Shown: positions 16,041 through 60,743 of the stretch, in pieces
Position numbering within the stretch: the stretch's first letter is position 1
Layout of the letters: each line of letters starts with the position of its first letter
Source of the DNA: Nitrospirota bacterium
GTDB taxonomy: Bacteria > Nitrospirota > Nitrospiria > Nitrospirales > Nitrospiraceae
Reading direction: 5' to 3'
Assembly (NCBI GenBank): GCA_016219645.1
Contig: JACRLR010000004.1
Coordinates: 1-64,000, forward strand
Length of the DNA stretch: 64,000 nt
Made by a program: the position numbers and the translations under genes
Notes under the pieces: model-generated
Told to the model about the DNA's origin: nothing
Databases searched by the model: none
Seen by the model: the letters and a program-made list of their open reading frames with translations, nothing else

Positions 16041-16080
16041 AGCTTCTCTGTGCCATCGATGGTTCCCGCATTCCCAGTGG
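16037..16080 (+). pseudogene. universal stress protein N-terminal fragment
   Basis: The start codon overlaps the phosphoribosyltransferase stop (ATGA). The first 10 residues, MKLLCAIDGS, match the ATP-binding N-terminus of universal stress proteins. Similarity ends after about 14 codons, exactly where a repeat element with terminal inverted repeats begins at 16081. The open frame runs on through the element but is not protein-like. No remainder of the gene is seen past the element. Confidence 0.6.
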
Positions 16081-16332
16081 GCATTATTCACGAGAGTTCG
16101 TGACGAAACCGCTGAGACGCCAAGCGAGACGGGCGTGCGGAGTCTGGGGGCTGACACCCTTCCCGCGTCTGCGCGTGGTGTCTGTCCCCATCCGAACCGG
16201 GACAGGCACCGTTGCGGACGACGGAGCCAGTCCCCAACAGTATGTTGACCGACTGAGCGGCGAGCCCGCCCGCCGTCAGGCCTGTCGTAGCGGCGTGTCG
16301 GCGGTTGCAGCAGAAGTCTTCGTGAATAATGC
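16081..16332. mobile_element. MITE-like element, copy A
   Basis: A 252-bp segment bounded by perfect 13-bp terminal inverted repeats (GCATTATTCACGA and TCGTGAATAATGC). It has no coding capacity. Its interior (TCGTGACGAAAC, GAGACGCC, GCGAGACGGGCG, GAGCCCGCCCGCC) is shared with copy B at 60416-60616, and its right end (ATGCGGGTTAACAG) with the partial copy at 41700-41810. It truncates a universal-stress-protein gene. Confidence 0.7.
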
Positions 16333-16337
16333 GGGTT

Positions 16338-16465
16338 AACAGGATGCTGAAAAAGTCTCCCAGCAAGTCATGTTCATTTGGTCTATTCGGTCCATCTGGT
16401 CTGTCTGGTTCGTCCGGTTAGTTTCGTTTATCAAACACACCAGACAGACCAGACAGACAGGACCT
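16338..16465. repeat. TCTGGT-type palindromic repeat, copy 1
   Basis: After an AACAGGATGCTGAAAAAG repeat start, the segment 16380-16465 forms a large inverted repeat: CCATCTGGTCTGTCTGG on the left, ACCAGACAGACCAGACAG on the right, with a loop of about 35 nt. The same design occurs at 33325-33430, 49500-49610 and 57110-57195. The following GCGGGCTATCGAAGC just before the CapA-like start also recurs elsewhere. Confidence 0.7.
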
Positions 16466-23744: not shown

Positions 23745-24090
23745 CTGGATGAGCCCCCACTGCGCGCGTCCACTCGTGGTACTCCCCATTCCCATACCAA
23801 CCAAGCAAGGGAGTGAGGAGCTTTTGACTGCGGCCGTCGAGCGAGGCTCATTCACTTCTCGAAACTTCTCCTTAAAAGGGAGTGGCCAAGGCTGCCCTTT
23901 ACTGCGCGCATCGAACGAGCACTTTCTGAATGTGCGCGTTCTGCGAGCAAGAAGGGCACCTGGCCGCTCCCTTCTCATCCTTCGGAGGGCGCGCGCTCCG
24001 GGAGCAAAGAAAACTCCTCACTCCCTTGCGCCACACTTTCTGAGACCGCGCGTGGCGCGAGCACAGGGGACTCACCAGGCCATCCCTCTC
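23745..24090. repeat. triply nested palindromic element (reverse orientation)
   Basis: Three palindromes lie inside one another. The innermost has arms at about 23877-23899 (AAGGGAGTGGCCAAGGC...) and 23952-23973. Around it are the arms GCAAGGGAGTGAGGAGC (from 23805) and CTCCTCACTCCCTTGC (to 24029), with halves of the conserved core next to them. The outermost pair joins about 23752-23775 (GATGAGCCCCCACTGCGCGC) to about 24045-24088. All are reverse-oriented relative to the copies at 31413 and 58190. The element fills the gap between two convergent genes. Confidence 0.7.
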
Positions 24091-25978: not shown

Positions 25979-27196
25979 ATGACTATGAGGGCAAAAGCTT
26001 TCAAAATCGAACGCTTCACCTTTCAAGAACGCTGCTGGGCCGTTCTCCTCATCGTCTTCTTAGGCGTCGGATTTGTCGCTTGCGAGAGAACTCCCGACCA
26101 AGCATCTGAGACCCCAAAGGCCGTTGTGGCCGAGAAGTCAGGTCTGATCCATCTCACGTCCGAGGAGCTCGCGCGAACGACGATCGAGTTCGCGCCGGTT
26201 GCTCGTGGGGCGTTGCTGGTACCGAGGCAATACACCGCCACAGTTCAACCCAACCAGAATGAACTGGCTGATGTGACGGCCCTCATCAGGGGCCGGGTGG
26301 TGAAGGTCTATGTGGATGTCGGCCAGGACGTGAAGAAGGATGCCTTGCTGGCCCTGCTGCACAGTACCGATCTTGGTGTGGCGGAGGGGGCCTACCTGAA
26401 GGCTGTTGCAAAACTGCACGAAGCGGAACTGGCGTACAAGCGAGCCAGAGACCTGCAAGAACAGAAGGTGGTGAGTCTGGCTGAATTGCAGCGCCGCGAG
26501 GCTACAATGAAAACGGCGCGGGCCGAGGCCCGCGAAATGTCGAATCGCCTCGAATTATTCGGGGTTCCCAAGGAGGAGATCGAGCGGCTGGATCGCGAGC
26601 AAACGATCAAGGCCGACGTCCTGCTGCGTGCGCCGTTCGACGGCCGCGTCATCATGCGCAATATCACGCGAGGCGAAGTGGTCGAAACTCAGCAGAAGCT
26701 CTTCACCGTCGCGGACCTTTCTGATCTGTGGGTGGTTGGAAATGTGCCGGAAAAGGACGTGCAGTTCATCCGCAAGGACCAGAAGGTCGAGGTGATTGTG
26801 TCCGCCTATCCCCATGGCATCTTTCCGGGCACGATCACCTACGTCGGTGATGTACTCGACCCTGCTACCCGCACGATGCGTTTGCGGGTGACGGTGCCGA
26901 ATCCCGATCTGTTGTTGAAGCCGGAAATGTTCGCCCTCGTTCTCGTCTATGTGGCAGAAACCCCGGATGCGCTGACCGTTCCGCTCGCGGCAGTCCAAAA
27001 CGGCCCGACCGGTAAGATCGTGTTTGTTCAACGGGGGGTGAACGACTTCGAAGTGCGAACGGTCAAACTAGGAAGCGAGCAGGGAGAGGTCGTGACGGTG
27101 CTGGATGGCGTGAGCGCCGGCGACCGGGTCGTGACCGAGGGATCGTTCGTCCTCAAGTCCGAAATGGAACGCCATAAGATCGAGCCGACACCATGA
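25979..27196 (+). CDS. HME-RND efflux periplasmic adaptor (CzcB/CusB-like)
   Basis: Membrane-fusion subunit (405 aa) linking an inner-membrane metal-efflux RND pump to an outer-membrane channel. It has an N-terminal membrane or lipoprotein-like segment (residues about 18-37, ending near GFVAC), the lipoyl half-motifs (GRVVKVYVDVGQDVKKDALLALLHS and LRAPFDGRVIMRNITRGEVV) around a helical hairpin, and the beta-barrel domain (LWVVGNVPEKDV). Its stop overlaps the pump gene start as ATGA. No His/Met-rich tail is visible. An outer-membrane channel gene is missing from this pair. Confidence 0.88.
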   Translation: MTMRAKAFKIERFTFQERCWAVLLIVFLGVGFVACERTPDQASETPKAVVAEKSGLIHLTSEELARTTIEFAPVARGALLVPRQYTATVQPNQNELADVTALIRGRVVKVYVDVGQDVKKDALLALLHSTDLGVAEGAYLKAVAKLHEAELAYKRARDLQEQKVVSLAELQRREATMKTARAEAREMSNRLELFGVPKEEIERLDREQTIKADVLLRAPFDGRVIMRNITRGEVVETQQKLFTVADLSDLWVVGNVPEKDVQFIRKDQKVEVIVSAYPHGIFPGTITYVGDVLDPATRTMRLRVTVPNPDLLLKPEMFALVLVYVAETPDALTVPLAAVQNGPTGKIVFVQRGVNDFEVRTVKLGSEQGEVVTVLDGVSAGDRVVTEGSFVLKSEMERHKIEPTP

Positions 27197-30100
27197 TTGC
27201 GACTCTTGTGGAGTTCTCGCTGCGGCAGCGGATCCTGGTCCTTGGCCTGGCCAGCCTGTTGTCCCTCGTTGGCGTCTTCGCCTTCCAGTCTATCCCGATC
27301 GACGCCTACCCCGACGTGACGAACATCCAGGTGCAGGTGCTGACCGAGGCGCCGGGACTCTCGCCGGTCGAAGTCGAGCGGTTCATCACCTATCCACTCG
27401 AACTTCAAATGACAGGTCTGCCGGGTTTGGCGGAGATCCGATCCCTTTCCAAGTTCGCCCTGTCCCAGATCACGGTCGTGTTCAACGACGACGTGGATAT
27501 CTACTTCGCCCGGCAGTTGGTCCTCGAACGGATCATGGCGGCGAAGGAGCGCTTACCGGAGGGGCTCGAACCAGTGATGGCTCCCGTCACGACGGGGCTG
27601 GGCGAGGTCTATCACTATTATGTGGAAGGGCCCCATGCGACGGCGACTGATCCGAAGGTCGTCGAGGAGGAGTTGACGGATCAGCGCACGATGCAGGACT
27701 GGGTCCTGCGCCCGTTGCTCAAGAGCGTGCCCGGTGTGATCGATGTGAACGGCATGGGCGGGTTCGTCAAACAGTATCAAGTCCTGGTCGATCCGGCCAA
27801 GCTCCGAAAGTTTGACCTGACGCTCCACAATATCTACGAGGCAGTGGCGAAGAACAATGCCAACGTCGGGGGCAATGTACTGGAACGGTATGCGGAACGT
27901 TCGATCGTCCGCGGCCTGGGCCTCATCAAAAGCGTGAACGATATCGAGTCTATCATCGTGAAGGAGTCGGGCGGCACGCCGGTCTTTGTTCGTGATGTCG
28001 CGGAAGTCCTCATCGGCCATGCCGTTCGCCATGGCGCAGTGGTCCTCAACGGGGAGCGGGAGGTCGTGATCGGAACCGTGCTGATGATTCGCGGAGGCAA
28101 TGCCCGTCAGGTGGTCGAGGCGGTCAAGAACAAGGTGGACGATCTGCAGCAGAATCACATCCTCCCGGCAGGCACGAAGATCCTGCCCTTCTACGATCGC
28201 ATCGAATTAGTGACGGCGGCGATCAATACGGTGCGGGACGCGTTGATCGAAGGGATCGTGCTGGTGGTCTTCGTCTTTTTTTTCTTCCTGGGCCATGTGC
28301 GCAGTGCCATCGTCGTGACGGCTTCGCTCATCATCACTCCCCTGATCACGTTCATCGCAATGCAACGGCTGGGGCTTTCGGCCAATTTGATGACGCTCGG
28401 CGGACTGGCTATCGCCATCGGCGAGATTGCGGACGGATCACTGGTTGTGGTGGAAAACGTCTATCGTCATCTGGCAGAGAGCCAAGGTCCGCAGCGGAAG
28501 AGTAAAGTTGAGGTGATCCTCCAGGCGACGAAAGAAGTAGGACGGCCGATTCTCTTCGGCATTCTGATCATCAGCGTCGTCTTCCTGCCGCTCATGACGC
28601 TCCAGGGCATGGAAGGGAAGATGTTCGCGCCGCTGGCCTACACGTTGGTGATCGCGCTCCTGGCCTCGGTCGTGGTCACGTTGACCCTGTCGCCGGTCCT
28701 CGCGTCGTTGCTCTTGCGCGGAGACCATCCGGAGGAAACGCGCCTCACGCGATGGATGAAACAGCGTTATGTGCCGGTGTTGCAATGGACGCTCAGGCAT
28801 CGCAGTCTTGTCCTGACCGGTTCGACGGCGATCGTGCTCTGCAGCCTCGCTCTCGTTCCATTCGTGGGACGGGAATTCATTCCACTGCTTGAGGAAGGAG
28901 CCCTGACTCCTCAAGTCGTGAGGCTGCCGAGTGTGTCGCTGGCTGAGTCCATCGAGATGGAGAAGCAAACCCACAAAGTCATGTTGGAGTTTCCCGAAGT
29001 GAAGATGGCCGTGAGCAGGATCGGTCGGGCCGAGATTCCCTACCATCCGGAGGATCTGTATGAGAGCGACCCGATCGTCTCATTGCATGACCGCAGTACA
29101 TGGAAAACGGCGAAGACTCAACCGGGGTTGACCGATGCGATCCGCAAGAAACTCGCAGAGGTTCCAGGTATTTCCGTGCTGATGAGTCAGCCGATTCAGG
29201 AACGGGTGGACGAGCTGATCTCCGGCGTCAGGACTGAATGCGCTATCAAACTGTTCGGAGAGGATCTTGATGTGCTCCGTGATAAGGCAACGGAGATTGC
29301 CGCCTTGATGCAGCAGATCAAGGGCGTCAAAGATATCAAGGTCGAACAGATCGCCGGGCAGCCCTACCTCGTCATCGACATCGATCGGCAGAAGATCGCC
29401 CGCTATGGCATCAACGTGGCCGACGTGCAGGAGATCATCACCACCGCCATCGGAGGCAAGGCGGCGACCCATGTGTACGAAGGCGAGCGGCGATTTCAAT
29501 TGACGCTGCGGTTTCCTGAGACGCAACGCAACAGCATCGGCAGCATCGGGGAGATCAGGGTGAAGTCGGCTTCAGGCGCCCTGATCCCGATGAGCGAACT
29601 CGCCACGATCGAGATGCGCGAGGGCCCGGCCCGCATCAGCCGCGAGCAAGTGAAGCGCCGCATTTACGTCGGCTTTAATGTCGTCGGGCGGGATATCGGC
29701 AGTATTGTGGATGAAGGCCGGAAGAAGCTGGAGCAACAGTTACGCCTGCCGGAAGGGTACAGTATAACCTGGGGCGGGGCCTTCGAGAACATGGAGAGGG
29801 CGAACGAACGGCTGTTGATCGTGGTGCCGATCACGCTCGGGCTTGTGTTCTTCCTGCTTTTCTGGGCGTTTCACTCGCTCCGCTACGCGACCTTGATCAT
29901 GATGAATCTTCCCTTCGCCTTGATCGGGGGCGTCGTGGCTTTGTGGTTGAGCGGACAATACCTGAGTGTGCCGGCTTCGATCGGATTCATAGAATTGTTT
30001 GGCCTCGCGGTCGGGAACGGGATTGTGCTGGTTTCTTATATCAACCAGCTGCGTAATGAAGGAACACAGATGGATCAGGCTATCGTTACCGGTTGCATTC

Positions 30101-30324
30101 TCCGCCTCCGTCCGGTTGTCATGACGATGATGACGACTCTGCTGGGCCTGTTGCCGTTGGTACTGGCGCAGGGGATCGGGGCCGAAGTCCAGCGACCACT
30201 CGCGACAGTCGTCATCGGTGGGCTTTTCACATCGACGGCACTCACGCTGGTGGTCTTGCCGGCCTTATATCGTTGGTTCGCAGAGAAAGAAGCGGGAAAG
30301 GAGTATGCGCCGGAATGGGTGTAA
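27193..30324 (+). CDS. HME-RND heavy-metal efflux pump (CzcA/CusA family), copy 1
   Basis: Inner-membrane proton-driven RND transporter, 1043 aa, of the heavy-metal family: N-terminal helix about residues 11-30, periplasmic docking/porter domains, and the family landmark SQPIQERVDELISGVR. In transmembrane helix 4 the motif is AIAIGEIADGSLVVVEN, keeping Asp414 and Glu421 of the proton relay but with Ala-Ile-Gly in place of the Asp-Phe-Gly of CzcA. This differs from copy 2, so a different metal is likely. It overlaps the adaptor gene by four bases. Palindromic repeats start 5 bp after its stop. Confidence 0.92.
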   Translation: MIATLVEFSLRQRILVLGLASLLSLVGVFAFQSIPIDAYPDVTNIQVQVLTEAPGLSPVEVERFITYPLELQMTGLPGLAEIRSLSKFALSQITVVFNDDVDIYFARQLVLERIMAAKERLPEGLEPVMAPVTTGLGEVYHYYVEGPHATATDPKVVEEELTDQRTMQDWVLRPLLKSVPGVIDVNGMGGFVKQYQVLVDPAKLRKFDLTLHNIYEAVAKNNANVGGNVLERYAERSIVRGLGLIKSVNDIESIIVKESGGTPVFVRDVAEVLIGHAVRHGAVVLNGEREVVIGTVLMIRGGNARQVVEAVKNKVDDLQQNHILPAGTKILPFYDRIELVTAAINTVRDALIEGIVLVVFVFFFFLGHVRSAIVVTASLIITPLITFIAMQRLGLSANLMTLGGLAIAIGEIADGSLVVVENVYRHLAESQGPQRKSKVEVILQATKEVGRPILFGILIISVVFLPLMTLQGMEGKMFAPLAYTLVIALLASVVVTLTLSPVLASLLLRGDHPEETRLTRWMKQRYVPVLQWTLRHRSLVLTGSTAIVLCSLALVPFVGREFIPLLEEGALTPQVVRLPSVSLAESIEMEKQTHKVMLEFPEVKMAVSRIGRAEIPYHPEDLYESDPIVSLHDRSTWKTAKTQPGLTDAIRKKLAEVPGISVLMSQPIQERVDELISGVRTECAIKLFGEDLDVLRDKATEIAALMQQIKGVKDIKVEQIAGQPYLVIDIDRQKIARYGINVADVQEIITTAIGGKAATHVYEGERRFQLTLRFPETQRNSIGSIGEIRVKSASGALIPMSELATIEMREGPARISREQVKRRIYVGFNVVGRDIGSIVDEGRKKLEQQLRLPEGYSITWGGAFENMERANERLLIVVPITLGLVFFLLFWAFHSLRYATLIMMNLPFALIGGVVALWLSGQYLSVPASIGFIELFGLAVGNGIVLVSYINQLRNEGTQMDQAIVTGCILRLRPVVMTMMTTLLGLLPLVLAQGIGAEVQRPLATVVIGGLFTSTALTLVVLPALYRWFAEKEAGKEYAPEWV

Positions 30325-30328
30325 GAGT

Positions 30329-30424
30329 GGAACGACACTCGTGGTGATCCTGTGCTCCCGGAGCGCGCACGATCGGAATGTGCTCGCTCGACGGCCGCAG
30401 TAGGACCACCACGAGTGCCATTCC
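30329..30424. repeat. variable-arm palindromic element (CACTCGTGG type)
   Basis: Complementary 22-nt arms (30329-30350, containing CACTCGTGGTGATCC; 30403-30424, containing GGACCACCACGAGTG) flank a 52-nt core. The core (30351-30402) matches the one at 58273-58324 without gaps at its ends (GCTCCCGGAGCGCGC and CTCGCTCGACGGCCGCAGT), while the arms are unrelated. It begins 5 bp after the pump stop codon. Confidence 0.75.
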
Positions 30425-30461
30425 ACAATGGGAATGGCGAGCGAGCTTGGAGGGGGGAGAG

Positions 30462-30555
30462 GAGGGCAGTCTGGTCGTCCTCCTGCTCGCGGAACGCGCA
30501 CGATCGGAATGTGCTCGTTCGACGCGCGCAATCGAGGATCGACCAGGCCACCCTC
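30462..30555. repeat. variable-arm palindromic element (CTGGTCGTCCTC type)
   Basis: Left arm 30462-30482 (GGGCAGTCTGGTCGTCCTC) and right arm 30534-30555 (GAGGATCGACCAGGCCACC) are complementary with a few mismatches. The 51-nt core between them folds on itself: GAACGCGCAC pairs with GTGCTCGTTC, and outside that CTGCTCGCG pairs with CGCGCGCAG across a small bulge. It is followed by AGCGAGCTTGGAGG, a short motif that recurs near most copies. Confidence 0.75.
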
Positions 30556-30700
30556 CCAGAAGAGAAACAAGCGAGCTTGGAGGAGAAGAAGCTAAAGCAA
30601 GCTTGAGATGAGGGAGCGGCTGAGGTCTGGCTCCGCTGTACATCTGTTGAGCTTCACCATTTGATGGAGTATCGTTCCGGCGAGAAATCGGAGGCCTTCT

Positions 30701-31412: not shown

Positions 31413-31765
31413 ATGGGCAGGGTGGCCTGGTTGTCCTCCTGCTCGCGGAACAGAGGAGGGGATGGAGCCTGATGATCTTCTGTGCTCGCGCAACGCGCGG
31501 CCTCAGAAGGGGAGGCGCAAGGGAGTAAGGAGCTTTCTTTGCTCCCGGAGCGCGCGCCCTCCGAAGGGCCTCGCTCGACGGCCGCAGTCAAAAGCTCCTC
31601 ACCCCCTTGCTTGGTTGGCATTGAAAGGGGGCAGGGAAACAAGTGGCCGCGCGCAGTGGAAGATCAATCAGCCCCCATCCCTAAGGAGATAACGAGCAAG
31701 CTTGGAGGGAGCATACATATCGTCCGATGCGCGCAATCGAGGATCGACCAGGCCACCCTGAAAAG
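31413..31765. repeat. triply nested palindromic element
   Basis: Outer arms are 31419-31438 (GGGTGGCCTGGTTGTCCTC) and 31739-31759 (GAGGATCGACCAGGCCACC). The outer core is split, and in the split lies a second unit with arms 31458-31479 (GGGGATGGAGCCTGATGATC) and 31660-31681 (GATCAATCAGCCCCCATCCC). Its core is again split by a third unit with arms starting at 31517 (GCAAGGGAGTAAGGAGC) and ending at 31610 (CTCCTCACCCCCTTGC). It begins about 10 bp after the cytochrome stop. The motif AACGAGCAAGCTTGGAGGGA is at 31691-31710. Confidence 0.75.
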
Positions 31766-31953
31766 AGAGCAGCACGCAAGCTTGGAAGGAGCATTATAGC
31801 GGTTGTTCGACAGGTATAAGGGGGGGGGGCTGTTGAGCCCATGACCCCTTCCTCGATTTCTGATAAGCTCGCCAGGCTTGTCATGGCGTTTGGCCTGCTC
31901 CGGCATACGAGGCTGAATTCACGGTGGAATCACAATCGGGAGGAGAGCTTCTT

Positions 31954-33249: not shown

Positions 33250-33500
33250 CCTAACAGGCTGCTTATAAAGTCCGCCAGCAGGGGGCGGATGGCCACGTGA
33301 GCTCCCTGTACTCGCGCAACGCGCCCGGGCTCGTCTGTCTGGTTGGCTGGTCTTTCTGGTCCGTCTGGTTCTTCCGGATGAATCTCCGGTCCGACCAACC
33401 AGATAGACGAGATAGACCAGATGAACCAGCATTCGTCGGACGCGCGCAGTGGAAAATCAATCAGCCCCCATCCCTAAAGAGATAACGAGCAAGCTTGGAA
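33250..33500. repeat. composite repeat: core element with TCTGGT palindrome at its apex
   Basis: It starts with AACAGGCTGCTTATAAAG, continues with ACTCGCGCAACGCGC (the left core half) at about 33310-33324 and then a TCTGGT-type palindrome at 33325-33430 (TCTGTCTGGTTGGCTGG ... ACCAGATAGACGAGATAG). Right after the palindrome come the right core half (GACGCGCGCAGTGG, 33438-33451), the arm AATCAATCAGCCCCCATCCC and AACGAGCAAGCTTGGAAGGA. So one repeat type occupies the apex of another. Confidence 0.7.
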
Positions 33501-41664: not shown

Positions 41665-41810
41665 AGGTTGATGATCGTCAAACGGGCGACTGGAGGGAAG
41701 CTACTTTGAAGAATAGCCCGCTGAAGATGACAGAGCCAGTACCGATCTCGCGACGCGGTTCTGCGATTTCGCGACAAACTATCATGAATAATGCGGGTTA
41801 ACAGTTTTTC
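41665..41810. repeat. repeat remnant and partial copy C of the MITE-like element
   Basis: CGACTGGAGGGAAGCT (41687-41702) with a following TGAAGAATAGCC recurs at the end of otsB (38667-38682 and just after). The right end of the element, ATGAATAATGCGGGTTAACAG (41784-41804 in two overlapping parts), matches copy A at 16323-16342. The insertion sequence starts at 41811. Confidence 0.6.
41795..41810. repeat. 16-bp target duplication, left copy
   Basis: GGGTTAACAGTTTTTC occurs directly before the left IS end and again directly after the right end at 43221-43236, an exact 16-bp direct repeat. Confidence 0.85.
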
Positions 41811-49429: not shown

Positions 49430-49683
49430 ACAGATTGGTCAGTACAGCGTGGTTGCCGCGCTCATCCGGGAGAGCGCGGTGAAACCACTGGGTATGGCTG
49501 ATCGGGTCTGTTCGGTCTATCTGGTCTATCCGGTTTCTCTGGTTATCCGCCGAATCCGGTCCAACCACACACACGAGATAGACCAGACAGGCCGAATAGA
49601 CCCAATAGCAGTCTTCACAGACAGGTGGATTGTTTCAGCGCCCTACAAGGGACTGTTGACCGTGCACCCGGAGGATTTCGCAC
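49430..49683. repeat. TCTGGT-type palindromic repeat, copy 3
   Basis: The segment 49500-49610 pairs GGGTCTGTTCGGTCTATCTGG with GAGATAGACCAGACAGGCCG ... AATAGACCC over about 26 bp, with a loop rich in CCGG. It lies between the pump and the glucose-6-phosphate dehydrogenase gene and leaves only about 70 bp for a zwf promoter, which was not identified. Confidence 0.7.
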
Positions 49684-51149: not shown

Positions 51150-51330
51150 AGAGGGAGTGGCCAGGTGCCCTTCTTGCTCGCAGAGGGCGCACGATCAGAA
51201 TGTGCTCCCTCGATGCGCGCAGTGGAAGACCAATCAGCCCCCAACCCTGAGAGATAACGAGCAAGCTTGGAGGGAGCAATTATATCGTTCGAGGCACACA
51301 GGGGGGGGACCAATCAGGGCACCCCTGTGT
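51150..51330. repeat. palindromic element with mismatched arms
   Basis: The left arm (GGGAGTGGCCAGGTGCCCTT, 51154-51173) is of the type in the innermost unit at 23877-23973, but the right arm (CCAATCAGCCCCCAACCC, about 51230-51247) is of the type seen at 31660-31681. The core between them (GCTCGCAGAGGGCGCACG ... ATGCGCGCAGTGG) is recognisable. AACGAGCAAGCTTGGAGGGA follows at 51257-51276. It looks like a recombinant of two units. Confidence 0.6.
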
Positions 51331-54447: not shown

Positions 54448-54480
54448 GTAACAGGCTGCTGAAAAGGTCTGCCGGACCAA
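54448..54480. repeat. AACAGGCTGCTGAAAAG-type repeat fragment
   Basis: AACAGGCTGCTGAAAAGGTC in the short gap between rbgA and the next gene is the same repeat start seen at 9511, 16338 and 33254. Confidence 0.6.
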
Positions 54481-57094: not shown

Positions 57095-57192
57095 AAACAA
57101 CAGATGAGCTTCTTCCTCTTGTGTAGTTGGTCTGTTTGGTTGAACGGGTTTATCCAGATAGACCAGACAAACCGAATGGACCGGACAGACCG
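57095..57192. repeat. TCTGGT-type palindromic repeat, copy 4
   Basis: GTTGGTCTGTTTGGTTG on the left and AGATAGACCAGACAAACC ... GGACAGACC on the right form an imperfect inverted repeat between the convergent antiporter and reductase genes, where it could terminate both transcripts. Confidence 0.6.
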
Positions 57193-58184: not shown

Positions 58185-58480
58185 GGGAAGGAGGGGATGG
58201 GACCTGATGATCTTCTGTGCTCGCGCAACGCGCGGTCGAAGAAGGAACGTCGCAAGGGCGTGAGGAGCTTTCTTTGCTCCCGGAGCGCGCGCCCTCAGAA
58301 GGGCCTCGCTCGACGGCCGCAGTCGAAAGCTCCTCACGCCCTTGCTTGGCTTGTATTGACATGGAGCAGGGAATACAAATGGACGCGCGCACTGGAAGAC
58401 CAATCAGCCCCCAGCCCTAGAGAGATTAGGGTCGCTCGAAGTGCGCAATGGGGAGCGCGCCAGCCGCCTCGCTAGATATA
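58185..58480. repeat. doubly nested palindromic element with perfect 21-bp arms
   Basis: Inner arms are 58252-58272 and 58325-58345, exact reverse complements over 21 bp (AAGGGCGTGAGGAGCTTTC is part of them), around a 52-nt core. The outer unit has arms at about 58194-58217 (GGGGATGGGACCTGATGATC) and 58398-58420 (AGACCAATCAGCCCCCAGCC) with its core halves next to them (GTGCTCGCGCAACGCGCGG; GGACGCGCGCACTGG). The element lies upstream of the reductase gene start. Confidence 0.75.
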
Positions 58481-58662
58481 GGTATAGAGATGGGAAATTT
58501 CTCGCTCGGTGCTGTTGAGGCGGATTGACTGGGGCAATCATGAAAAGTAGAATATTACGAACTTCTCTACGGAGAACGGCTAGTATTCAGCCAGGAAGAT
58601 ATCCCGTAGGGGATGGTAGTAGCACGGTCCATTCAGTTCGTTCAAACAAGGAGGTCAAGGAG

Positions 58663-59022
58663 ATGATGGGACGTATTTGGTTCATGGGTTTAGGGATTGC
58701 ACTCACTACCGCTCTCAGCGTGGCGCCGGTATTCGCTGGAGATAAGCCGGCAAAGGCGCCGGTGGAGGATGGATCGAAGTTGATGATTACGTCTCCCAAG
58801 GACGGGGACAAGGTCAGCGACACGTTCGAGCTGAAGTACGACTTAACCAAGGGCTCCCAAGCGACGCATGTCCATGCCTATGTGGACGATGAGTATCAGA
58901 AGGGTTTTGCTGGAACAGTGAAAAATCTGAGCAAGGGGACGCACAAAGTCACTGTGACCGGCGCCACCAAGGACCATGATCCCGTCACTGCCACCCACAG
59001 CATCACGGTCGACGTGCAATAG
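58663..59022 (+). CDS. secreted Ig-like-fold protein, tandem copy 1
   Basis: A 119-aa protein with signal peptide (residues about 1-25, cut after VFAG) and one compact domain with beta-sandwich pattern (ITSPKDGDKVSDTFELKYDL, HVHAYVDDEYQKGFAGT, LSKGTHKVTVTGATKDHD). It is a near-duplicate of the next gene. Function unknown; the domain resembles small secreted Ig-like modules. Two consecutive ATG codons (58663, 58666) follow AAGGAGGTCAAGGAG. Confidence 0.75.
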   Translation: MMGRIWFMGLGIALTTALSVAPVFAGDKPAKAPVEDGSKLMITSPKDGDKVSDTFELKYDLTKGSQATHVHAYVDDEYQKGFAGTVKNLSKGTHKVTVTGATKDHDPVTATHSITVDVQ

Positions 59023-59190: not shown

Positions 59191-59556
59191 ATGCAGACGA
59201 TGGGGCGTATCTGGTTCATGGGGTTAGGGATTGTGTTAGCTGCTTGTCTCAGTGGAGCCTCAGTCTTTGCAGAGGATAAACCGGTCACCCCGCCAGTAAA
59301 ACATGCGCCGAAGGTGGTCATTACCTCTCCCAAGGATGGGGATAAGGTCAGTGACAGTTTTGATTTGAAGTACGAGCTGGCCAAAGGTTCCGACCCGACG
59401 CATGTCCATGTCTACGTGGACGATGAATATCAGAAGGGTTTCTCTGGAACACTGAAGGGCCTGAGCAAGGGGACTCACCAGATCACTGTGAAAGGCGCCA
59501 CCAAGGACCACGATACTGTGGCGGCCAGCCATACCATCACAGTCGAAGTGGAATAG
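59191..59556 (+). CDS. secreted Ig-like-fold protein, tandem copy 2
   Basis: A 121-aa paralogue of the preceding gene. The signal peptide shares MGRIWFMGLGI, and the mature domain repeats PKDGDKVSDSFDLKYEL, HVHVYVDDEYQKGFSGT and LSKGTHQITVKGATKDHD. Differences are spread over the whole length, so the duplication is not very recent. The ATG at 59191 follows AAGGAGGT. Repeated elements follow downstream. Confidence 0.75.
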   Translation: MQTMGRIWFMGLGIVLAACLSGASVFAEDKPVTPPVKHAPKVVITSPKDGDKVSDSFDLKYELAKGSDPTHVHVYVDDEYQKGFSGTLKGLSKGTHQITVKGATKDHDTVAASHTITVEVE

Positions 59557-59706
59557 GGCGGCAATCAGTTCAAACATCAGGCTTTCCCAAGTAACTGCCT
59601 TGTCTTAACCACCGGATATTCCTCCCGTACAACGTCGGCAGATAGATATGATCAGCTGGTCTGGTTTGTCCCCGGTGCCGTGCATTGCGCGCTCTCAGAA
59701 GGATGG

Positions 59707-59802
59707 GAAGGGCAGCCTGGTCGTCCTCCTGCTCGCGGAACGCGCACGATAGGAATGTGCTCGTTCGACGCGCGCAGTTGAGGATCGACCAGCCTACCCT
59801 TC
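59707..59802. repeat. variable-arm palindromic element (CTGGTCGTCCTC type), second copy
   Basis: Arms 59707-59728 and 59780-59802 (AAGGGCAGCCTGGTCGTCC; GGATCGACCAGCCTACCC) flank a 51-nt core nearly identical to 30483-30533. The rest of 59557-59938 shows no gene; a short CTGGTCTGGTTTG at 59656 resembles the TCTGGT repeats. Confidence 0.7.
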
Positions 59803-59938
59803 AAGGGCTAGACGAGCCCCCACCCTTACCTCCCCGTAAATACTTCCATTTCAACTTTTTGCTCATTGACTTGTGACAACAGAGACAACGAGGTTCTGTG
59901 GCGCACAGGAGGACCTTTCTATCAGGAAGAGAACGGAC

Positions 59939-60415
59939 ATGGCCGTGCCAATACTGAGCAAACAGGTTGAACGAACCATTCTGCTGATCCGTGGACAGCC
60001 CGTGATGTTGGATACAGATCTGGCAGCGCTCTATGGCGTCCCTGCCAAAACGCTCAACCAGGCAGTAAGGAGAAACGTCTCCCGCTTTCCTGCTGATTTC
60101 ATGTTCCAACTGACAGAGAAGGAAGCAACCGCTTTAAGGTCACAATTTGTGACCTTAAAGACAGGCCGTGGCAACGCAGAAAATACCGCCCCTACGCCTT
60201 TACAGAACAAGGGGTGGCGATGCTTTCGAGCGTGCTGCATAGCGAGCGCGCCATCCAAGTCAATATTGCCATCATGAGAACGTTCGTTCAGCTTCGAGAA
60301 ATGATCGGTTCGGGGAGAAACAACGGAGTCATTCTACATATCTCGGAGCGTGGGGGTGGGGCTCGGAGCGGATGTCACCGGAGGAGCGGGGACCCGTCGA
60401 GGCGTGGCCAGCGCC
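59939..60415 (+). pseudogene. ORF6N-domain protein, frameshifted and truncated
   Basis: The N-terminal ORF6N DNA-binding domain is clear ([33 protein letters not shown]). Around 60170-60185 the frame changes: the rest of the family sequence ([19 protein letters not shown], then [14 protein letters not shown]) continues in another frame, so one base is missing. Shortly after, family similarity ends before a MITE-like element at 60416. The ATG at 59939 follows AGGAAGAG. ORF6N proteins come mostly from phages and mobile DNA, so this is an eroded acquisition. Confidence 0.75.
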
Positions 60416-60743
60416 CATTATTCATGGGGGGTCGTGACGAAACTGTGGAGACGCCGAGCGAGACGGGCGCGTGGAGCTTCGAGAGACCGAGGCGTACTCG
60501 AAGCAGTACGTCGAGGTCAGGAGGGGCGAGCCCGCCCGCCAGCATGTGGCTTGTGGGCATGCTGGCTTGTCGCAGCTGCGTATCCGCAGTTGCAGTAGAA
60601 GCCCGCATGAATAATGTGCGCGAAGAAGGAAAGCTGGAACTGACTGAAGGCGTGCGCGCCTGAAGGAATTCGAGAAGGGTTCCGCCGCGACAGGCCCGAA
60701 CGGGTCGCTCCGGGAGGTGCGGGAGCGGCTGAGCCCCACCCCC
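60352..60743. repeat. outer inverted repeat around MITE-like copy B
   Basis: GGGGGTGGGGCTC (60352-60364) and GAGCCCCACCCCC (60731-60743) are exact reverse complements flanking the element at 60416-60616 by about 50 and 115 bp. They mark a larger, composite palindromic insertion. Confidence 0.55.
60416..60616. mobile_element. MITE-like element, copy B
   Basis: Bounded by CATTATTCAT and ATGAATAATG, it shares its interior with copy A (TCGTGACGAAAC near the left end, GAGCCCGCCCGCC near the right). An internal hairpin GCCAGCATG/CATGCTGGC is specific to this copy. It has no coding capacity and ends the broken ORF6N gene. Confidence 0.65.

Follow-up and report, generated by a model that had tools for sequence, protein, structure and literature searches.

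Two neighbouring elements between positions 30327 and 30556 of the window, the 64-kb stretch of Nitrospirota DNA analysed here, raise the question of why a common centre should be bordered by arms that differ from one element to the next and still pair with each other. The sequence-only reading had described them as hairpins with a fixed core and unrelated, exchangeable arms, pointing to either strong selection on the hairpin shape or a mechanism that copies arms. The elements are indeed present as it described them, and both are real long hairpins. Element 1 (30327-30426, + strand, arm class B, core 30353-30399) starts 2 nt past the TAA stop codon of an RND efflux-type gene (27193-30324), and element 2 (30461-30556, + strand, core 30484-30530) belongs to arm class A, the most frequent class in the genome. 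A tail motif of the same kind (consensus AACGAGCAAGCTTGGAGGGA) accompanies each of them, at 30436-30454 and 30568-30586, both on the + strand. Each element folds into a single hairpin, with energies of -59.4 and -60.2 kcal/mol and z values of -6.79 and -6.64, respectively, and none of 200 shuffled sequences folded as well as either. The copy at 58252 yields a z value of -8.97, and all five of the elements that were folded adopt the same shape (z from -6.6 to -9.0).

The element is a hairpin of about 95-100 nt. Its core (TGCTC...CGCA) measures 47 nt, and the arms range over 18-31 nt, most of them being 20-26 nt long; in the two elements at issue they amount to 20-25 bp. The pairing across a bulge that had been proposed for the core is correct, and the full fold, (((.(((((((((.(((((.......))))).)))))..)))).))), contains in addition two invariant 1x1 mismatches (T.C and C.T), the bulge being two bases, GA, on the 3' side, and the loop being small. 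As had also been stated, the cores align without gaps: those at 30353-30399, 30484-30530 and 58275-58321 share 83-85% identity over 52 nt. The description of the centre as fixed does not hold, since the core pairs covary as well. Pair 8/36 is GC in 126 elements and CG in 38, pair 10/34 is AT in 138 and GC in 21, and pair 7/39 is GC in 135 and AT in 32, while the mismatched bases 3, 13, 31 and 43 are invariant in 168-169 of 169 elements. Compensated variants of the core include GAAC/GTTC, CAAC/GTTG and GAGC/GCTC, as well as CGCG/CGCG and CGCA/TGCG.

The arms of an element pair with their own partners and not with those of other copies, with a mean alignment score of 30.8 compared with 14.2 for the arms of another element. 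Their mutual unrelatedness, on the other hand, is only apparent; arms sort into classes across the genome, and they seemed to be unique sequences because few copies were in view. To follow the arms at a single site, we aligned the element that 15 species carry in an ABC-transporter operon, where it separates the stop codon of the ATPase gene from the start of the permease gene. In this alignment 94% of the cells are paired and 23 of 36 pairs have changed on both sides; none of 500 shuffles matches this covariation, and sliding the partner by 1-3 columns leaves only 3-7 such pairs. A second orthologous site, in seven species, shows compensated changes in 6 of 35 pairs. The arms therefore covary on orthologous copies, implying that what has been preserved is the pairing and not the sequence of the arms, in keeping with the proposal of strong selection on the hairpin shape. 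An old, decayed repeat family, which had been named as the reading that alignable arms lacking covariation would favour, is refuted by the two-sided changes in the 15 species: the arms can be aligned within classes and sites, and yet they covary.

Nor are the arms freely exchangeable. The classes spread together with the core and drift site by site, so that free exchange among unrelated copies can be rejected; at a site that is kept, it can be the core that is swapped. What looked like exchange is mostly fast compensatory divergence, together with core replacement within kept arms and nested insertion into loops. True chimeras of left and right arms do occur (e.g. L105, L107 and L226), but they lack pairing between the two arms, and nesting with deletion is the best explanation for them. 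Compensation in the stem is also, by itself, less unusual than had been supposed, since it is known in REP families (PMC3733652, PMC2817692).

The family is abundant in its host and confined in its distribution. Matches to the left half of the core with no more than one mismatch number 196 in the 3.65-Mb host genome, against 1 for a reversed control; for the right half, with up to two mismatches allowed, there are 246, against 15. Within the genus the pattern is found in all 32 genomes, mostly in 70-150 copies each. Of 118 Nitrospiraceae genomes searched with a covariance model trained on 40 diverse elements, 114 contain the family, representing 21 of 22 genera. Elsewhere in the phylum, 95 genomes of other families gave no match, with faster filters that may miss weak relatives. 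In a pattern scan of 84,980 species, the named loci among the matches listed all belong to Nitrospira or other Nitrospirota. No Rfam family matches the window at the gathering score, which rules out a known RNA family. We found no account of the elements in the open literature, subscription papers lying outside that search; in the RepRanger study (PMC12306157), Nitrospira moscoviensis appears solely in a table of totals. The family is real, and we found no earlier report of it; its structure, covariation, distribution, orientation and nesting are strongly established.

The mismatches left in the arms carry information about the strand that folds. When isolated arm mismatches are counted as unique events on the strand on which the core is read, A.C outnumbers G.T by 135 to 46 (p = 2e-11); with one representative per cluster at 75% clustering the numbers are 57 and 17 (p = 3e-6). 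Very loose clustering weakens the asymmetry, to 54 against 32 (p = 0.02) and to 11:3 with one element per cluster. The A.C:G.T counts are 101:25, 33:4, 34:2 and 29:4 for elements in the gene contexts ++, --, -+ and +-, respectively. The excess is found whichever way the neighbouring genes run and so belongs to the element and not to host transcription; a mutational bias driven by transcription or replication is an unlikely cause, because the sign follows the element. An A.C mismatch on the core-read strand corresponds to a G.T wobble on the opposite strand, and the invariant T.C and C.T mismatches correspond there to G.A and A.G, which stack well. As far as these base changes can indicate, we hold with moderate confidence that the constrained fold is the one formed by the opposite strand, either as single-stranded DNA or as the element's own RNA. 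Such an RNA, if made, could come from a promoter inside the element.

Placement relative to genes was scored in 209 elements not chosen by site, taken from the host genome, a 400-kb sample of a second genome (G002) and named genome contigs, with genes called by a home-made codon-model gene caller. The element starts within 20 nt after an upstream stop codon in sense orientation in 62 of the 209 cases, and in none at the mirror position in antisense orientation. In these elements the start of the pairing most often lies no more than 2 nt ahead of the stop codon's end and no more than 5 nt beyond it. More than half of the copies lie away from any stop codon. The element in the ABC-transporter operon has been kept in most of the examined species of the genus, and where it is missing a different inverted repeat can occupy its place (L153, L154). 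Read on the core strand, the sequence to either side of the element is rich in purines in 228 elements; with no T tract after the stem, an intrinsic terminator is ruled out.

At one site (L167), in several species whose inner arms differ, the right arm complements the final 9-13 nt of the upstream gene, stop codon included; the pairing is GGTCATGGGCTGA with TCAGCCCATGACC, also given as ATGGGCTGA with TCAGCCCAT. The coding end HHHGSAVMG* is identical in other genera that lack the element there (L391-L393, L396, L397), and therefore it was the right arm that came to match the host DNA and not the reverse. Template-switch copying or stepwise growth of the stem would each yield such an arm. Shorter overlaps are seen at L247, L295 and L300. 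The proposed mechanism that copies arms thus receives partial support, from the arm that matches an ancestral coding end at this one site.

The other complex repeats of the window, on which the sequence-only reading was silent, prove to be members of the same family, several of them nested. Elements sit inside the loops of others, the nesting reaching three levels at 31418-31769 (+ strand): there a class A element is broken at GGAAC|AGAGG by a class G element, and a class F element (core 31540-31586) in turn breaks the class G one after TCAGAAGG. At 58195-58420 (+) a class G element carries in its loop the class F copy mentioned above (58252-58345, core 58275-58321), and the nest at 23745-24090 (- strand) consists of an outer class C/G, a middle class F and an inner class E element. 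The tip of the core of an outer element at 33283-33490 (+) is replaced by a different long hairpin, a TGGTCTGTC-type repeat. The window also contains a chimeric element with a class E left arm and a class G right arm (51150-51245, +, core 51175-51221) and a class A element (59702-59803, +, core 59730-59776).

Further repeats were recorded alongside these elements. A second hairpin repeat, made of short TGGTC/TGTC-like units (GGTCTGTCTGGTT...AACCAGATAGACGAG) and having long inverted arms of its own, is found in the loops of core elements and also alone (33306-33450, 16376-16462, 49501-49606 and 57150-57185, and loci L136, L142 and L217). Another palindromic repeat, with the ends GCAGGATGCTGAAAAAGTCCGCC and GGACGGCCTTTTTGAGCATCCTGC, frequently hosts embedded core elements and occurs at 16337-16361, 33252-33276 and 54449-54473 as well as at many other loci. 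A family of long inverted repeats ending in GCATTATTCATGA and TCATGAATAATGCGG is present at 16074-16342, 41755-41804 and 60408-60627. In addition, 58661-58960 and 59195-59494 are neighbouring direct copies of 300 nt, 75% identical, that overlap predicted ORFs.

Comparison across species shows uninterrupted orthologues for three nests: L205, L197, L212 and L215 for nest L207, L206 for nest L222, and L197 for nest L209. In composites the outer arms can belong to class C, D or G even where the inner unit and the junctions are identical. At the ABC-transporter site, L121 shares its distal arms and flanks with L132 and L133 and differs from them in core type. The sequence TCAGAAGG flanks some nested inserts on both sides (L009, L010, L035) and does not do so at L207; its presence on both sides as a target duplication is suggestive only. 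Runs of right halves without left halves (L142, L147) could be the outcome of nesting and a later deletion between the repeated left arms. Many cores (class J; L209, L222, L104, L115 and others) contain in their 3' half a short hairpin insert, GGCACGTCTCGGCGTGCC, with GTGGGTGGGCGGGTGAGAA on its flanks. In the genomes compared we observed no recent insertion within a species, divergence within the genus being high, and at the uvrA site (L037) the intergenic regions have wholly turned over, so that a comparison with an empty site is uninformative. Insertion of cores into pre-existing terminator hairpins is not the general route, since the element-less counterparts of the L165 site (L218, L219, L225) contain no obvious hairpin.

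Several explanations compete for these observations. One holds that the element acts in mRNA, where a hairpin at the 3' end of the upstream transcript affects ribosome release, mRNA decay or relative expression within operons, as REPs close to stop codons do in E. coli, and selection acts on the sense RNA. The placement at stop codons in sense orientation only (62 to 0) speaks for this, and the retention in the ABC-transporter operon, with another inverted repeat able to substitute, points the same way; in E. coli, moreover, ribosomes are reported to stall at REPs that lie no more than 15 nt from a stop codon (PMC12306157). However, folding of the sense RNA should allow G.U and not A.C, yet A.C is the commoner mismatch, also where the neighbouring genes are reversed; the mismatches that never vary read U.C in sense, the G.A form belonging to the opposite strand, and more than half of the copies have no stop codon beside them. 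We consider an mRNA element tenable but rather unlikely. Another possibility is neutral repair, in which template switching during replication corrects imperfect palindromes with neither selection nor present mobility. Many of the two-sided changes simply flip a pair (GC to CG, UA to AU), as copying would easily do, and the right arm that matches a coding end fits as well. Such repair should not have left the core mismatches and the GA bulge uncorrected in nearly all of the 169 copies, nor the remaining arm mismatches strand-asymmetric, and the sense-only placement is left unexplained, which makes this account quite improbable.

It could also be supposed that this is an ordinary REP/BIME family served by a RAYT transposase (PMC3733652, PMC2817692). 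The likeness is considerable: both are extragenic imperfect palindromes, present here in about 100-200 copies per genome, clustered and mosaic, with compensated stem changes and frequent contact with stop codons. REPs, however, are 20-40 nt long, about one third of the ~95 nt found here, and have no such structured core, nor are they nested in loops or held to a single orientation at stop codons. The GTAG or CGTC tag, as defined in those two studies, is absent from the stem foot in 228 elements, which carry no tetranucleotide tag. Copies are also unlinked to the presence of Y1 transposases. No Y1 (RAYT-type) gene was detected in G019, G025, G026, G027 and G030, genomes that are at least 90% complete and hold 72-130 copies; of the 30 Y1 loci only L363 has a core half no further than 1.5 kb away, a single one, and no locus has two. 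The sole Y1 gene detected in the host genome (G000:C20:51681-52004, L047) is RAYT-like and adjoins a different palindromic repeat, AGCAGGCTGTTGAC...GAACAGCCTGC. No other candidate mobilising enzyme was found. With both the tag and the transposase partner missing, we reject the REP/RAYT identity, leaving this explanation highly improbable.

On balance, we think it somewhat more likely than not that the elements form a Nitrospiraceae-specific family of mobile non-coding hairpins, similar to REPs in copy number and position but outside the known REP superfamilies. The recognised unit would be the single-stranded hairpin of the strand opposite to that on which the core is read, and a postulated trans-acting enzyme would need the core, with its bulge and G.A mismatches, and a long stem of any sequence. 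Such an enzyme may have placed copies close to the ends of genes and within the loops of hairpins already present. After insertion the arms would drift through compensatory change, and cores could be replaced in situ by nested insertion and deletion between direct repeats, or by gene conversion. Stems may also grow outward over the flanking DNA, which would explain the right arm complementary to a host coding end, and a hairpin lying past a stop codon may owe its retention to an influence on the termination of translation or the decay of mRNA. A stricter version, a new kind of single-strand mobile hairpin, seems to us unlikely as a whole: in it the enzyme would read only the short structured core of one strand, whatever stem lies below, and would insert into the loops of resident hairpins and one-way beside stop codons, while the stem would lengthen as host DNA is copied into the arm opposite.

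Nitrospira are the main nitrite oxidisers, and comammox bacteria are among them; the family occupies a substantial share of the space that follows their genes. Its core and stem evolve separately, which makes it a natural experiment, and its strand signature is clear enough for testing with oligonucleotides. The orthologous hairpins at stop codons provide a set for asking whether such hairpins matter in translation termination. A dedicated enzyme, if it exists, would be a new mobiliser of hairpin DNA.

Among known systems, the general features of REPs are all present, the elements being extragenic, palindromic and repeated many times per genome, while a transposase gene flanked by two inverted copies, as in REPs with a RAYT, is not. 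The conserved terminal inverted repeats of MITEs are likewise missing, since the outer arms are the most variable part. ERIC/RU-1, Correia/NEMIS and RUP (PMC2229807) resemble the family in being intergenic units of about 100-155 nt, several of which form long hairpins, but they have conserved terminal repeats and TA ends where the outer arms vary here. IS elements that enter REP elements (PMC1525189) provide a precedent for insertion inside hairpin repeats; in our case the insert is not a gene-bearing IS but another hairpin repeat, mostly of the same family. The nearest in behaviour is YPAL/RU-2 of Yersinia, since its targets span or adjoin dyad symmetry (PMC2229807); this 168-bp hairpin element is likewise intergenic and may act on transcripts from upstream. 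It differs in size and host, and the review describes for it no fixed core with varying arms.
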